A stretch of DNA of 64,000 bases from NCBI RefSeq assembly GCF_900103035.1, contig NZ_FMWO01000041.1, positions 1 through 64,000 on the forward strand, given 5' to 3'. A program made the position numbers and the translations under genes. Under the pieces are notes generated by a model. That model searched no databases and had not been told where the DNA came from. It worked only from the letters and a program-made list of their open reading frames with translations. Positions 2,154 through 16,825 of this stretch are shown piece after piece; position 1 is the stretch's first letter; every line of letters starts with the position of its first letter. Origin of the DNA: Nitrosomonas mobilis (GTDB taxonomy: Bacteria > Pseudomonadota > Gammaproteobacteria > Burkholderiales > Nitrosomonadaceae).

Positions 2154-2472
2154 GGTATCGGCTCCTGTACTTTGCTTTGAAAATATGGAATATGATCTTC
2201 AAGATAGGTGTTCCATTGCGCCAACGTCTCGAAAAGTTCTCGGCATGTTTCCGCGTTGAACGCTGAGTTTAGCTTTGTTTCAGATTTCTTGTTATTCCCG
2301 AGCCACCCACCAAAATTCAACGCCCAATCTGTCCCGATTGGGCGTTTTTATTTGTGTGCACGACATGGGTGTACTCCTGGAGATATATGCCCCGCTGCAA
2401 GTTGATTACGGCGAACGCCTTGTAAGGGGATGTATATGTATGCGGGAATGAGAGACGTCCTGAAGCAAAAGT
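2154..2472. other. non-coding stretch between mobilisation relics and rnpB
   Basis: No convincing coding region is seen on either strand. It holds the hairpin terminator listed separately. Just before that hairpin is a tRNA-like 3' tail (GAGCCACCCACCA) without any T-arm, too little to call a tRNA remnant. Confidence 0.5.
2321..2351 (+). terminator. rho-independent terminator
   Basis: A perfect 9-bp stem (CGCCCAATC / GATTGGGCG) with a 6-base loop is followed directly by TTTTTATTT on the plus strand. No intact plus-strand gene ends just upstream, so it probably served something now lost. Confidence 0.75.
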
Positions 2473-2773
2473 GAAGCTGGCCGATAAGCCGGGTTCTGTC
2501 GTGGACAGTCATTCCTCTAGGCGAATAGTTACCTACTCGCTCAAGCAACCTACCCGCAGACTCGGCGAGCAGCGTCATCGTCTGCCTATTTGGTCTTGCT
2601 CCGGATGGAGGTTACCGCGTTTCACCGTAACTTAATACGCTCGTCTCTGTGGCCCTGTTCCTCGCCTTGGGTCTTACGACTTATAGCGGCCGGCCATTAA
2701 CCGGCATCCTGCTCTGCGGAGCCCGGACTTTCCTCTCCCTGGGTTGCCAGGCAGCGACTGTCTAGCCAGCTTC
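2473..2773 (-). ncRNA. rnpB: RNase P RNA, bacterial class A
   Basis: The catalytic RNA of RNase P, which matures tRNA 5' ends. On the minus strand the 5' end (GAAGCTGGCTAGACAGTCGC) can pair with the 3' end (GGCTTATCGGCCAGCTTC) to form P1/P2. The conserved regions are present in order: GGGAGAGGAAAGTCCGGGCT, GGTGAAACG, and the 3' block AGAGGAATGACTGTCCACGA then ACAGAACCCGGCTTA. About 301 nt is somewhat short for the class but all core signatures are there. Ends are placed from the P1 pairing and could be off by a few bases. Confidence 0.95.
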
Positions 2774-3900: not shown

Positions 3901-4864
3901 GGCCTTTTCTCTCATGATGAATGGGAACACCGGCTACAGTTGATAGGGTCAGACCATCGCCGGTAACAATTTCACCAATACAGGACAACTGGATATTACT
4001 CTGTTGCGATAACTGGACAAGCGCTTCATGGTTATTTGCGGCTGCAGTAAAACATAGCTCATAATCGTCTCCGCCTGCCAGCAAACAATCCATGGCAAGC
4101 TTACGTTCAAGATGTCCTGGCATTAGTTTTTTTCTTAGTGCGCTGCTGCAGGGGATACGTTCAAAATCAACTTTCGCACCGATGCCCGAAGACCGAAGGA
4201 TGTGCCCAAGATCGGCGAGTAGTCCATCAGAAATATCAATGGCACTGCTTGCCAGTTTCTGTAACTGTTGACCGAGACCAACACGGGGAACGGGTTTATC
4301 CAGATGACTTAGACAGGCTTGTGCTTCCTGTGGCGTCAATACGATCTTGCGTCGCAGATAACCCAATGCCAGCGCGGCATTGCCCAGCTCACCAGAAACC
4401 CAGATATCGTCTCCAGCTACTGCGGTACTGCGTTTCAATGCCCTGCCATGCTGGATTTCACCCATGATCTGCACGCCGATATTTAACGGTCCGCAGGTGG
4501 TATCGCCTCCGATCAGCTCCACATCAAACTGATCGGCAAGCGTGAAGAATCCACTGGAAAAAGCGTTCAACCAGGCATCATCCTGCGCCAATTCCCGGGG
4601 AATCGTCAATGACAGCATGACCCAGCGGGGTGTTGCACCCATAGCCGCCATATCCGATAGATTCACCGCAAGCGATTTATGCCCTAGATTAGCTGGGTCA
4701 GTATGTGCGAAAAAATGGCGATCTGCCACCAGGGTATCTGTGGAAGCCACCAGATCCATTCCGGTGCGACAGGTAATAATCGCAGCATCATCGCCGACAC
4801 CTAATAATGCCCGTCTGGATGGGCGCGTGAAGTAACGGCGAATGATGTCGAACTCAGAATTCAT
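3881..4864 (-). CDS. thiL: thiamine-monophosphate kinase
   Basis: ATP-dependent kinase that phosphorylates thiamine monophosphate to thiamine diphosphate, the last step of cofactor synthesis. 327 residues, normal for ThiL. Visible family motifs are LLGVGDDAAII at the N-terminus (Mg/ATP binding), KSLAVNLSDMAAMGA, LIGGDTTCGP, DISDGLLADLGHI and LAGGDDYELCF. It lies downstream of nusB (35 bases) in the run ribE-ribBA-ribH-nusB-thiL-pgpA-pncC, a common betaproteobacterial grouping of riboflavin and thiamine genes around nusB. Confidence 0.95.
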   Translation of the reverse strand: MNSEFDIIRRYFTRPSRRALLGVGDDAAIITCRTGMDLVASTDTLVADRHFFAHTDPANLGHKSLAVNLSDMAAMGATPRWVMLSLTIPRELAQDDAWLNAFSSGFFTLADQFDVELIGGDTTCGPLNIGVQIMGEIQHGRALKRSTAVAGDDIWVSGELGNAALALGYLRRKIVLTPQEAQACLSHLDKPVPRVGLGQQLQKLASSAIDISDGLLADLGHILRSSGIGAKVDFERIPCSSALRKKLMPGHLERKLAMDCLLAGGDDYELCFTAAANNHEALVQLSQQSNIQLSCIGEIVTGDGLTLSTVAGVPIHHERKGHDHFLA

Positions 4865-4899
4865 GGAAAAATTAATGTAGAACGAGCGTTATCATATAC

Positions 4900-5388
4900 T
4901 TATTTTTTTTTGCTGGATGTCGACATACCGGTCTCGGCTATGCGCAGTGCTGTTGCCAGTTTATCCAGCACCCCATTGACATAGCGATGGCCATCGGTCC
5001 CACCGTAGCTTTTAGCCAGTTCAATAGCCTCATTGATAATAGCGCGATAGGGGATCTCCGGATGATGCACAAGTTCGTAAGCACCCAGCAACAAAATTGA
5101 ATATTCGACCGGACTCAGCTCGGTCAGTTGACGATCAAGGCAAGGTTGAATATGAGTTTGCAGTTCCAGAGCGTGTTCCAATGCTCCGTTTAATAAATCC
5201 TCAAAATAGGTTTTATCAGCGCGGGCAAAGATTTTGGTTTCGTGTAGCTGTGCGATGATGTCACGTACTTCGCCTTGTGCTTGACGCCACTGGTAAATTC
5301 CCTGCACCGCCAGTTCCCGCGACAGACGACGACGATTTTTGAATTTGGGTGCAGGTTTTACTGATGGAATGGAAGTGGGTTGCGTCAT
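4900..5388 (-). CDS. nusB: transcription antitermination factor NusB
   Basis: An all-helical RNA-binding protein that, with NusE (S10), binds boxA RNA and prevents early termination in rRNA operons. 162 residues. Motifs are [15 protein letters not shown] near the N-terminus and the C-terminal [20 protein letters not shown] followed by [10 protein letters not shown]. It begins with a 4-base ATGA overlap with the end of ribH, so it is cotranscribed and probably translationally coupled to the riboflavin genes. A ribH-nusB arrangement is widespread in proteobacteria. Confidence 0.96.
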
Positions 5389-12009: not shown

Positions 12010-12062
12010 TTATAAATATAGTGGTAAAAATTTAATGATCAACTCGAGTGGGGGGCAATGAA

Positions 12063-12875
12063 ATGCAACTGAACAAACTGACTTCAATGTTATCGATTGC
12101 GGTAACCACGCTGGCATTAAGCTTGTCAACGATTCATGAAACTAGCGCGGCAGTCCTGGCAGTAGACTTATCTTCTACTGCCACAAACAGTGGCACCATA
12201 ACCAGCGGCGGCAATACGCTGACTTTTGCCTTTGATCAAACTCAGCCGAGCGGAACCGGCGTACTGAATTCCTTCCTCAGAGTTCAAAAAAACAGCAATG
12301 AACAGGGATACAATACAAATGCAAATAAGGTTTTTGATAACAAAGGTGGAAATTTTACGCGCGACGTACAATTTGGTGAACTGCAAAGCACTGATGGTTT
12401 TTACCAGTTTGTACTGGATATCGGGGAACCTGGGGGGAAGAATGGCAGACTACTATCTCTGGATGGTTTGAAATTATTTTCCTCAACGACCGGCGGTCAA
12501 TCCAGCCAATCAGTAGATCCAAACGGAAACGCAAATGGTATTTCAGGAACATTGCTGTGGGACATGGATAGAACCGTTGATAATTACGTTCTGCTCGATG
12601 CAAACAGAAACGGCAAACCCGGTAATGGTGTGAGTGACATGTTGTTGAAAGTGCCAGAAACGGTTTTTGCCGGACAGAATGCAAATAACTATTTCATCTT
12701 GTGGTCACGCTTTGGTTTACAACCAGGCTCGGGTTCTGCCGGTACATTTGAAGAATGGGCCTTTTTGACGGCCAGCACCAGTGGTCTGAATGAAATCCCC
12801 GAACCCATGAGCCTGCTGCTAATCGGCACCGGCCTGCTTGGTTTTGCTGCCACCCATCGTCGCAGACTGGTCTGA
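12063..12875 (+). CDS. PEP-CTERM sorting-domain exported protein of unknown function
   Basis: A 270-residue secreted protein. It has an N-terminal Sec signal peptide (cleavage probably after HETSAA near residue 30) and a Gly/Asn/Ser-rich body with no Cys. The C-terminus is a PEP-CTERM signal: the PEP motif (EIPEP), a hydrophobic helix (SLLLIGTGLLGFAA), then a basic cluster (HRRRLV). Exosortase cleaves such proteins for the outer surface or extracellular polymer matrix. ATG 12063 is preferred over GTG 12048 because a GGGGGG ribosome site sits before it. It follows a sigma-54 promoter and is closed by a strong terminator, so it is a single-gene unit. Function of the body is not recognised. Confidence 0.88.
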   Translation: MQLNKLTSMLSIAVTTLALSLSTIHETSAAVLAVDLSSTATNSGTITSGGNTLTFAFDQTQPSGTGVLNSFLRVQKNSNEQGYNTNANKVFDNKGGNFTRDVQFGELQSTDGFYQFVLDIGEPGGKNGRLLSLDGLKLFSSTTGGQSSQSVDPNGNANGISGTLLWDMDRTVDNYVLLDANRNGKPGNGVSDMLLKVPETVFAGQNANNYFILWSRFGLQPGSGSAGTFEEWAFLTASTSGLNEIPEPMSLLLIGTGLLGFAATHRRRLV

Positions 12876-14353: not shown

Positions 14354-14730
14354 TGCAGCACTCTTGGCACACTCAGGATGAACTCGGGTATCTCCACGGA
14401 AAAATGGAAACCATCCTCGGCTACCATTTGATAGCTACCTTTCATGGAACCCACCGGCGCAAAAATGGCGGTGCCACTGGTGTACTCAAAACTCTCTCCA
14501 GGTTTCAGCAAAGGCTGTTCCCCCACTACCCCCAGCCCTCTCACCTCATGCACACTGCCATCCCCATCGGTAATGATCCAGTGACGACTGATAAGCTGTG
14601 AAGCGACTCTGCCAGTATTGACAATGGTGATCGTGTAGGCAAAGACAAAATGTTCCGTCCCGACGTCTGATTGTTCGGGCAGATAAGTGGTTTTGATCTT
14701 CACTTCAATGCAGTATTTTTCGTTGTCCAT
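14350..14730 (-). CDS. apaG: ApaG family protein
   Basis: About 126 residues with a single immunoglobulin-like beta fold. Family motifs are YTITIVNTG, SRHWIITDGDG, VVGEQPLLKPGESFEYTSG and GSMKGSYQMV. The E. coli homologue lies in the ksgA-apaG-apaH operon and is linked to Co2+/Mg2+ homeostasis and heat tolerance; the biochemical role is not settled. The second of two adjacent Met codons is used as start; the first (14733) is equally possible. It is the first gene of a three-gene minus-strand run. Confidence 0.93.
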   Translation of the reverse strand: MDNEKYCIEVKIKTTYLPEQSDVGTEHFVFAYTITIVNTGRVASQLISRHWIITDGDGSVHEVRGLGVVGEQPLLKPGESFEYTSGTAIFAPVGSMKGSYQMVAEDGFHFSVEIPEFILSVPRVLH

Positions 14731-14862
14731 CATTAGGTTAATTCATCTCATTTTGGGCATTTCTAAAAACTCATATTTGCGAGCATCCCCTTCGGGGATT
14801 ACCTGCTGCGTCTCAGGAATATCTCAAGTTTACCAGTGTACCGCCGTCAATAGCTCTTACCG

Positions 14863-14940
14863 ATAAAGGCTAACCTATCGTGAGGTAGGGGCGCAAAGCT
14901 TCCGGTCTTGACAAATTGTCAAGAAAGCGGGGTTGCCGAA
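14863..14940 (+). promoter_or_regulatory. cyclic-di-GMP riboswitch, class I (GEMM-I)
   Basis: Consensus elements appear in order: AAAGGCTAACC, a short hairpin (CCTA TCGTGAGG TAGG), the highly conserved GGCGCAAAGC, CTTCCGGTC, a variable hairpin (CTTGACA AATTGTCAAG) and the closing GCGGGGTTGCCGA. This matches the aptamer that binds one c-di-GMP between its two long helices. It lies about 80 bases upstream of the start of the subtilisin-like peptidase and in the same orientation. A T-rich tract at 14956-14963 could be part of an expression platform acting by termination, but a clear terminator/antiterminator pair was not resolved by eye. ON or OFF behaviour is unknown. Confidence 0.9.
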
Positions 14941-15019
14941 GTTCGCATTTCATGCTTTTTATTTAAGCGTGCTTGCAAACCTTTAGTCGGTATTTTGTCA
15001 ACTACAGGAGCCAAGCATC

Positions 15020-16825
15020 ATGCTACCCTTTTTGTTTCCTAAACATCGCTTTACCATTCATTTTTTTTTACTGGGCTTATTAGTCGCATTCCCTGGCACG
15101 AGCATCGCCAAAGTAACCAAAGAAGCAAACAGCAAGCAGCCCGTTATTTCAAAGAAATTCCCCGATTCCGGTAAATGGGCCAGGGGGCGCCTGCTGGTCA
15201 TGCCGCGCGCCGGTGTTGCCGCGCAATCCATCGATAAAGTGGATGGCATCAAGTCCCGGCACAAACTGAAAAAACTCAATGCCTATATTTACGAACTACC
15301 GGATGGTGTAGATGAAGTCAAATTCATGAACAAACTCCGTAAAGACCACCGCTTCAAATTCGTCGAGCTTGACAGGCTGATTGAGCCAGGACAGACCATC
15401 ACTGATCCTGCCCTGGGAAACAGCTGGGCATTACCCAAGATAGGCGCGCCTGCTGCATGGGATATTGCAGCCGGTGACAGTATCACGATTGCAATCCTCG
15501 ATACCGGAGTGGATAGCAACCATCCTGATCTGGCGGCCAATATGGTTTCTGGCTGGAACATGTACGATAATAATGCAGATAGTTCGGATATTTTCGGTCA
15601 TGGTACCAAAGTGGCTGGCGCTGCGGCTGCAGCTGCCAACAATGGTCAGGGCAGTGCCGGGGTTGCGTGGAGCGCACGCATCATGCCGGTTCGTATTTCC
15701 CGGCCTGATGGCATGGCTTATATCAGCACTATGGCTCAGGCAATTCGCTGGGCAGCGGACAATGGCGCGCAGGTTGCCAATATCAGCTACGGTGGTGCAG
15801 ACAGTGCGACGATTCACAATGCCGCAAATTACATGCGTAGCAAAGGCGGCGTTGTAGTTATGTCGGCTGGTAACAGCGGCACGCTTCTGAACTCCCCACC
15901 TACCGATGCCGTGATTGTCGCCTCCGCCACTGGCAGTAATGATGCCCGCGCAAGCTGGTCGACCTATGGACCGCTGGTCGACGTCGCCGCGCCAGGCGCC
16001 AGCATCTACACGACAACTAATGGTGGTGGCTATGGTTATGTTTCCGGCACTTCCTTCTCCAGCCCGATTACGGCCGCCACCATTGCCCTGATGTTATCGG
16101 CCAATCCGGATCTCGCTCCCACGGATATTGATGAATTGCTCACATCGACTGCCATTGATCTGGGTGAGCCCGGTTTTGACCAGTACTACGGTCATGGCCG
16201 GATCAATGCAGCGCGTGCTGTGGAAGCTGCCTATACAAAAATCAGTGCGGATAACATTCCGCCCGAGATCAGCATCGCATCCCCGACAGGCGGACAGATA
16301 TCAGGCGATGTGCCAGTGGATGTAAATTATTTCGACAACAAAGGTGTGGTGCGAGTGGAGCTGCGCATTGATGAGCAGTCGGTTATTACCGATACCGATG
16401 CGCCTTTTGCTTTCATGCTGGATACAACACAGCTGAATGAGGGGGAACACACTATAACCGCCCATGCATTTGATGCGGCTGGCAACCAGGGAAGCTCTGC
16501 ACCGGTTATCGTCACTGTAAAAAACTCCGACAAATCGGATGATCCCGTTGCTGATCCGGTATTACCTGAAATTACCGAGTTCAATCTCACTGACGGCATG
16601 AAAGTGAGACGCAATCAGGCGGTAATTGCTCGAGCCAGTGAGGCTACTGTAGAAATGGCACTGTCGATCAATGGCAGCATCGTTGCATCCAGCACCAGCA
16701 CATCATTGGGCTATCGCTGGAGAAGCTGGGATGATGCACCGCGCGGCACATGGTTCACCGTCACGGTAGAAGCCAGCGATGCTGAAGGTAACACCATCAG
16801 CAAAACCGTTAATGTGAGCAACTAA
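15020..16825 (+). CDS. secreted S8 (subtilisin-like) serine peptidase with C-terminal Ig-like domains
   Basis: A 601-residue exported protease. The signal peptide ends near Ala30 (GTSIAKV). Residues 50-125 resemble an inhibitor I9-type propeptide. The catalytic domain (about 135-410) has the complete triad: Asp161 (ILDTGVDSNHPDL), His194 (FGHGTKVAG) and Ser345 (SGTSFSSP), with oxyanion Asn285 (SAGNSG). Two Ig-like modules follow (about 420-505 and 520-601), probably for binding surface or matrix partners. The ribosome site AGGAG precedes the ATG. Expression is probably governed by the c-di-GMP riboswitch in its leader, which links it to the biofilm/motility switch. The natural substrate is not known. 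Confidence 0.93.
   Translation: MLPFLFPKHRFTIHFFLLGLLVAFPGTSIAKVTKEANSKQPVISKKFPDSGKWARGRLLVMPRAGVAAQSIDKVDGIKSRHKLKKLNAYIYELPDGVDEVKFMNKLRKDHRFKFVELDRLIEPGQTITDPALGNSWALPKIGAPAAWDIAAGDSITIAILDTGVDSNHPDLAANMVSGWNMYDNNADSSDIFGHGTKVAGAAAAAANNGQGSAGVAWSARIMPVRISRPDGMAYISTMAQAIRWAADNGAQVANISYGGADSATIHNAANYMRSKGGVVVMSAGNSGTLLNSPPTDAVIVASATGSNDARASWSTYGPLVDVAAPGASIYTTTNGGGYGYVSGTSFSSPITAATIALMLSANPDLAPTDIDELLTSTAIDLGEPGFDQYYGHGRINAARAVEAAYTKISADNIPPEISIASPTGGQISGDVPVDVNYFDNKGVVRVELRIDEQSVITDTDAPFAFMLDTTQLNEGEHTITAHAFDAAGNQGSSAPVIVTVKNSDKSDDPVADPVLPEITEFNLTDGMKVRRNQAVIARASEATVEMALSINGSIVASSTSTSLGYRWRSWDDAPRGTWFTVTVEASDAEGNTISKTVNVSN

Follow-up and report, generated by a model that had tools for sequence, protein, structure and literature searches.

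Among c-di-GMP-I riboswitches, C. difficile gave the one report found of a protease-type target, and there the protease is of another type than the one described here. In that species zmpI, which encodes PPEP-1, carries a class I riboswitch and is regulated negatively by c-di-GMP, and PPEP-1 cuts the sortase-anchored proteins CD2831 and CD3246, whose genes bear class II ON switches (PMC6366702). In Methylophaga nitratireducenticrescens GP59, c-di-GMP riboswitches flank PEP-CTERM genes (PMC12530212), and a PEP-CTERM gene is reported to contribute to floc formation (PMC9850573). No description of a riboswitch-subtilase pairing was found among the titles and abstract openings listed in searches of an open-access collection that leaves most subscription papers outside. 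To our knowledge, PEP-CTERM proteins have no described protease that is devoted to them and governed by a signal.

The locus studied here lies in a 64,000-nt stretch of Nitrosomonas mobilis DNA, which was analysed as a whole and is called the window. As in C. difficile, a class I c-di-GMP riboswitch precedes a (probably) secreted protease, and the targets carry a C-terminal sorting signal, which for the window protease is a proposal. However, PPEP-1 is a zinc metalloprotease of a sortase/LPXTG system, whereas the window system would pair a serine protease with exosortase/PEP-CTERM. Moreover, the PPEP-1 substrate genes are under an opposed riboswitch in that account, whereas the window genome has a single c-di-GMP-I site, at the protease. 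The locus shares with GP59 the occurrence of c-di-GMP riboswitches in a PEP-CTERM/exosortase context, but in GP59 they stand directly before PEP-CTERM genes, the table consulted naming no protease next to them (PMC12530212), and in the window before the protease.

The whole window was scanned against Rfam at gathering thresholds, which gave two RNAs, RNase P and an aptamer of the c-di-GMP-I clan at 14859-14941 on the forward strand (cmscan, E 3.9e-12). Searched through the genome (3.08 Mb, 112 contigs), RF01051 scored 65.3 bits on the aptamer against a gathering score of 35 (E 1.8e-12) and matched nowhere else even at E <= 1, so no second c-di-GMP-I riboswitch was found by this model in the whole genome; class II c-di-GMP riboswitches were scanned for in the 64-kb window. 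The original prediction of a c-di-GMP-I riboswitch upstream of the protease thus held, with 78 nt between the aptamer and the ATG, and the RF01051 covariance search that it had set as its refuting test returned a match above threshold. It had placed the start at 14863, which was right as to class and 4 nt late as to position. Folded by itself, the aptamer had an unremarkable minimum free energy (z -1.66, 17 of 200 shuffles equally low), so the case rests on the covariance score and on conservation. The other RNA, a class A bacterial RNase P RNA at 2469-2773 (-), was ordinary (234.7 bits).

The first name printed by Rfam for the window aptamer, through clan competition, was c-di-GMP-I-GGC (RF03167), of which the same aptamer was the single match in the genome. 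This subtype was reportedly set apart as a separate variant by Weinberg in 2017, and it is defined by a G at the A47-like position, as its consensus line also indicates: RF01051 reads GACGC-A-AAgC, RF03167 GACGC-G-AAgC and the window GGCGC-A-AAGC. The pocket letters of the window aptamer were G, A and C at what we take to be the G20-, A47- and C92-like positions (Vc2 numbering). A GGC assignment was first considered from the Rfam name and was dropped, as the discriminating letter is A, not G. That the RNA is such a variant with another ligand is very improbable: RF03167 was indeed printed first with 61.7 bits against its cut-off of 59, but the letter separating the two models contradicts the name, and RF01051 lies 30 bits above its own cut-off.

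The same letters were compared in an alignment of 35 aptamers, namely the window, 31 before protease homologs of the family, L105 (an aptamer before a contig end) and two named-MAG loci, L111 and L113. The A47-like letter was A in 34 and C in one (L072), the C92-like letter was C in 34, and the G20-like letter was G in all 35. The cGAMP (c-AMP-GMP) variant of GEMM-I has an A at the G20-like position, and this A was absent from all 35. We conclude from these letters that the window RNA is a canonical c-di-GMP-I riboswitch, an unexceptional representative of an established class (GEMM-I, RF01051) that it resembles in covariance score, architecture and pocket letters, the aptamer itself showing no difference. 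A further model, R1, was used only for finding aptamers, since its RNAalifold structure pairs GGC with GCC and departs from the Rfam topology. Across two locus scans (family with named-MAG loci, and order), c-di-GMP-I-GGC was printed for 8 of 21 clan matches, all eight with A; besides the window, the loci so named despite the canonical A were L071, L074, L111, L113, L155, L156, L157 and L169. Surveys that go only by the model name may overestimate the c-di-GMP-I-GGC class.

The gene after the aptamer (15020-16825, +) encodes a subtilisin-like protease of 601 aa with Ig-like C-terminal domains. Peptidase_S8 (PF00082) matched its product with 176.1 bits (cut-off 21.8, E 1.3e-51), together with the Ig-like domains Big_7 and Big_13, as the original prediction had it. 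The triad motifs were all intact, starting at residues 161 (DTGV), 193 (GHGT) and 343 (GTSFSSP), and these Asp/His/Ser motifs lined up with thermitase (PDB 1thm), which shares the catalytic domain (E 1.2e-49). Unlike thermitase, the window protease has an extra N-terminal region and the Ig-like C-terminal domains. By eye its N-terminus is hydrophobic and signal-peptide-like, and the protease is probably secreted; no PF07589 match, that is, no PEP-CTERM tag, was found in the protein itself. The window genome has two AMO (PF02461) genes, from which the organism is an ammonia oxidiser, as had been stated. It also has 13 GGDEF matches, so the organism probably makes c-di-GMP.

A PEP-CTERM protein gene at 12048-12875 (+) gave 21.9 bits with PF07589 (cut-off 20.7) and is a possible, non-adjacent member of the same surface system. 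It lies 2.1 kb upstream of the protease with two opposed genes between, and downstream of the protease is a pyrophosphatase-like ORF on the opposite strand. The ORFs called RsmI-, ApaG- and pyrophosphatase-like were recognised by eye, and the names are presumptive. The neighbourhood evidence in the window itself is weak: the genome has 13 PF07589 matches, 11 above the cut-off, about one per 240 kb. Its sole exosortase match is at L178 (G000:C82; domain 4471-5223, -), and the genes around it resemble, by eye, an exopolysaccharide cluster.

Homologs of the protease were then counted in the family. They occurred at E <= 1e-30 in 37 of 125 genomes, of which 35 were counted after exclusion of G037 (L107, weak) and G074 (Ig part only); two fragments, L105 and G021:C38, were also left out, as was L115 for its weakness. 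In the fetched family loci, 31 of 44 homologous genes were preceded by a same-strand aptamer, which lay 95-503 nt upstream of the first residue aligned. With the window included, linked genes numbered 32 of 45, and genomes with a link 32 of 35 (exceptions G066, G105 and G097), a count in which L072, with a decayed aptamer of 36.2 bits, is taken as linked. Nine of the 13 unlinked family genes stood in tandem with a linked copy.

The pair was also present elsewhere in the order. A homolog at E <= 1e-60 was found in 21 of 399 genomes, 15 of them outside the family with 16 genes, and a c-di-GMP-I aptamer stood directly upstream of 11 of the 15 assessable ones (upstream sequence is lacking for the 16th; L168 did not enter the riboswitch tally on this ground). 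The four negatives all belong to one genus (g32). RF01051 matched 19 sites across these 15 genomes, and 11 of the 19 lay at the protease. Seven loci from named MAGs were compared: a link was present in L111 (Thauera) and in L113 (labelled Desulfosoma), and none in L108, L109, L110, L112 and L114; the eighth, L115, was too weak for counting. In 20 genomes picked among those bearing homologs, a site lay upstream of 21 of 27 homologs vs 0 of 43 other S8 genes, the link being a listed RF01051 site at most 1.5 kb upstream of the S8 domain, among the sites listed.

In a rapid tree without bootstrap, built from 45 linked and 22 unlinked proteases (67 in all), linked members occurred in most large clades, and unlinked ones in a clade of four MAGs, in a separate clade of four g32 genomes and among tandem copies. 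The linked label required 13 changes on the tree, and none of 500 label shuffles was as low. We read this pattern as an old pairing with repeated losses, a direction that we infer from the sequences. The closest relative of the window protease by tree path was L072; its aptamer (4649-4730, -) has changed letters in the pocket region and offers a natural loss for comparison. The pairing is conserved far beyond the window genome, as the homologous sequences indicate, and more widely than the original prediction saw. What stands out is the conserved coupling of riboswitch and subtilase, often near PEP-CTERM genes and tied to exosortase-bearing genomes, the RNA class being already known.

Next to the protease genes of relatives, a regular expression matched a PEP-CTERM gene within 4 kb in 21 of 36 loci of the family, 10 of 15 of the order and 6 of 7 from named MAGs, although the L114 match among the last was false by eye. 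The control gave a match in 5 of 80 overlapping 8-kb windows, cut from twenty 20-kb stretches that came only from 12 of these family genomes, a comparison in which the loci spanned 3.2-13.5 kb (4-kb flanks for the window) vs 8 kb for the controls, and in which false positives by eye were one of four matches in the control stretches, one of two in L164 and that of L114. PF07589 was passed by all seven proteins tested, six neighbours and the PEP-CTERM protein of the window. In L071 and L074, genes of the same kind stand before the riboswitch, and a PEP-CTERM gene directly follows the protease.

Without their last 30 residues, the PEP-CTERM proteins fell into 12 groups of at least two and 8 singletons (E 1e-4), some of the singletons being false matches, and the window PEP-CTERM protein had no similarity at E 1e-4 to those beside related proteases. 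On this sequence comparison, the common feature of the neighbours is apparently the tag, and their ectodomains appear unrelated. Exosortase (PF09721) was found in 165 of 399 order genomes, and in 20 of the 21 that bear the protease (the exception, G289, had no match) vs 145 of the 378 others; Fisher's test gave p 1.4e-7, a value that overstates the true significance, as do the other p values, because the genomes are related and non-independent.

The enrichment of PEP-CTERM neighbours and of exosortase argues against a reading in which the riboswitch controls a general secreted protease, serving matrix turnover or nutrient scavenging or acting on many envelope proteins, and in which the PEP-CTERM vicinity is mere clustering of surface genes. 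Such a protease would agree with the mutually unrelated ectodomains, with the 15 of 36 family loci that have no PEP-CTERM match within 4 kb, and with the nearest solved relatives, which are broad-specificity subtilisins and thermitase; we consider it a possible explanation, at clearly less than an even chance. Our preferred explanation, to which we give about an even chance, is that a c-di-GMP-I riboswitch gates the translation of a subtilase acting on exosortase-sorted (PEP-CTERM) surface or matrix proteins. It draws on the computed aptamer, gene, conservation of the pair, frequency of PEP-CTERM neighbours in relatives and co-occurrence with exosortase, and also on the OFF-type energies of 14 of 34 leaders described below, the GGDEF matches and the C. 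difficile precedent. Against it count the 20 of 34 leaders whose folding energies differ little, the 15 of 36 family loci that lack a PEP-CTERM match, the distance and dissimilarity of the window PEP-CTERM protein, the decayed L072 aptamer, the aptamer-free homologs of four g32 genomes and five MAG loci, the missing exosortase match in G289, and the single c-di-GMP-I site of the window genome, which leaves none for opposed control of a substrate gene.

The leader between aptamer and ATG (14942-15019, +; 78 nt) is the probable expression platform, with an SD-like AGGAG just 5' of the ATG. No terminator-like or promoter-like site was found in 14700-15100, and a terminator platform was set aside for want of a terminator-like site there. 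A leader arm near 14980-14992 (CCUUUAGUCGGUA) could base-pair with the aptamer at its 5' end and at its 3' end. Pairing of the arm with the SD was undetectable in the window, both as ungapped helices and by RNAduplex against shuffles (SD arm p 0.59, aptamer arm p 0.58), and opening of the SD cost 5.7, 5.1 and, without the leader, 4.8 kcal/mol, values that do not discriminate. For these two reasons, the sign of control appears unreadable from the window sequence in these models.

Other leaders were more telling. By RNAduplex against shuffles, the SD arm stood out in nine loci of g3 (p 0.003-0.06) and was also significant in L080 (p 0.023), L081 (p 0.003) and L113 (p 0.013). In the nine linked g3 loci the SD-pairing arm (e.g., GGCGGUUCCGCCUCC) overlaps the arm that pairs with the 3' end of the aptamer, and SD opening cost 8.0-12.5 kcal/mol once the aptamer was excluded from folding, which mimics the bound state, vs 4.1-8.1 kcal/mol with the whole leader folded, a difference that we read, within the folding model, as suggesting OFF logic. 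Excluding the aptamer made opening dearer by roughly 1 kcal/mol or more in 14 of 34 leaders (the nine g3 loci, L074, L077, L078, L080 and L081) and cheaper by at least 1 in 0 of 34. The other 20 had no clear energy difference; these included the window, most other leaders of genus g1, L113, and L111, whose start codon in the folding analyses is probably the wrong ATG. In L073-L077 a single arm (e.g., GUCGGCUUU) could pair weakly at each of three places, the SD and the 5' and 3' termini of the aptamer; the best helices fell on one arm and were singly mostly non-significant (p 0.02-0.44, ungapped helices, 12 leaders). The single covarying case was L075, with CCGAU for CCGAC in the aptamer and AUCGG for GUCGG in the arm.

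If the switch works at all, high c-di-GMP would, by analogy, be somewhat likelier to turn the protease OFF. The opposite sign, in which c-di-GMP raises protease synthesis and the matrix is matured or remodelled during biofilm growth, is rather unlikely: the window itself gives no readable sign, and class I switches of both signs are known (PMC6366702), but 14 of 34 leaders had OFF-type energies and none the reverse by at least 1 kcal/mol. It is also improbable that the riboswitch is a relic in the window genome with its regulation lost. Such a loss would match the decay in the neighbouring lineage L072 and the SD-pairing arm not found in the window leader; against it, the window aptamer retains its pocket letters and 65.3 bits.

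In the preferred reading of a gated subtilase acting on PEP-CTERM proteins, c-di-GMP would bind the leader aptamer and control would act at translation, so that high c-di-GMP would keep the protease OFF and the enzyme would be made on the turn to the free-living state. PEP-CTERM proteins would then be its substrates, and their cutting would loosen the matrix, these last two steps being the least certain. The role in biofilm dispersal or adhesin trimming that had been proposed for the protease is plausible, with the PEP-CTERM proteins as a candidate substrate class. More speculatively, and in our view doubtfully, the pair may form a shedding module: the subtilase would be silent at high c-di-GMP and, on its fall, would cut PEP-CTERM proteins of varied ectodomains near the shared tag region, freeing cells from floc or biofilm. 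If true, this module would parallel the sortase/PPEP-1 system as an independently assembled analogue based on a serine protease. A conserved pair of this kind in exosortase-bearing bacteria would let the exit of flocculating and nitrifying bacteria from their matrix be tested through a single RNA and a single gene.

Other c-di-GMP-I aptamers were observed in the relatives. In one family genome an aptamer stood directly before a PEP-CTERM gene (L013:1689-2573, +; PF07589 28.4 bits), and at L175:3333-4124 (-) one stood directly before a VPLPA-like gene with 17.3 bits, below the cut-off. Aptamers also preceded genes whose products matched Pfam weakly and below threshold, either glycosyl hydrolase family 42 (L004, L018) or polysaccharide lyase (L006, L023); L016 and L028 resemble L004 and L018 by eye and had no Pfam match. 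A c-di-GMP-controlled set of polysaccharide-acting proteins in the family is possible. Pairs of aptamers about 240 nt apart on the same strand were present at G090:C28 (82150/82391), G044:C42 (14284/14527) and G091:C1 (2670312/2670552), and are possibly tandem riboswitches. A DUF1631 gene (Pfam) directly followed the aptamer at L173:990-3791 (-), and the post-aptamer genes of L170, L172, L174 and L177 resemble it by eye.
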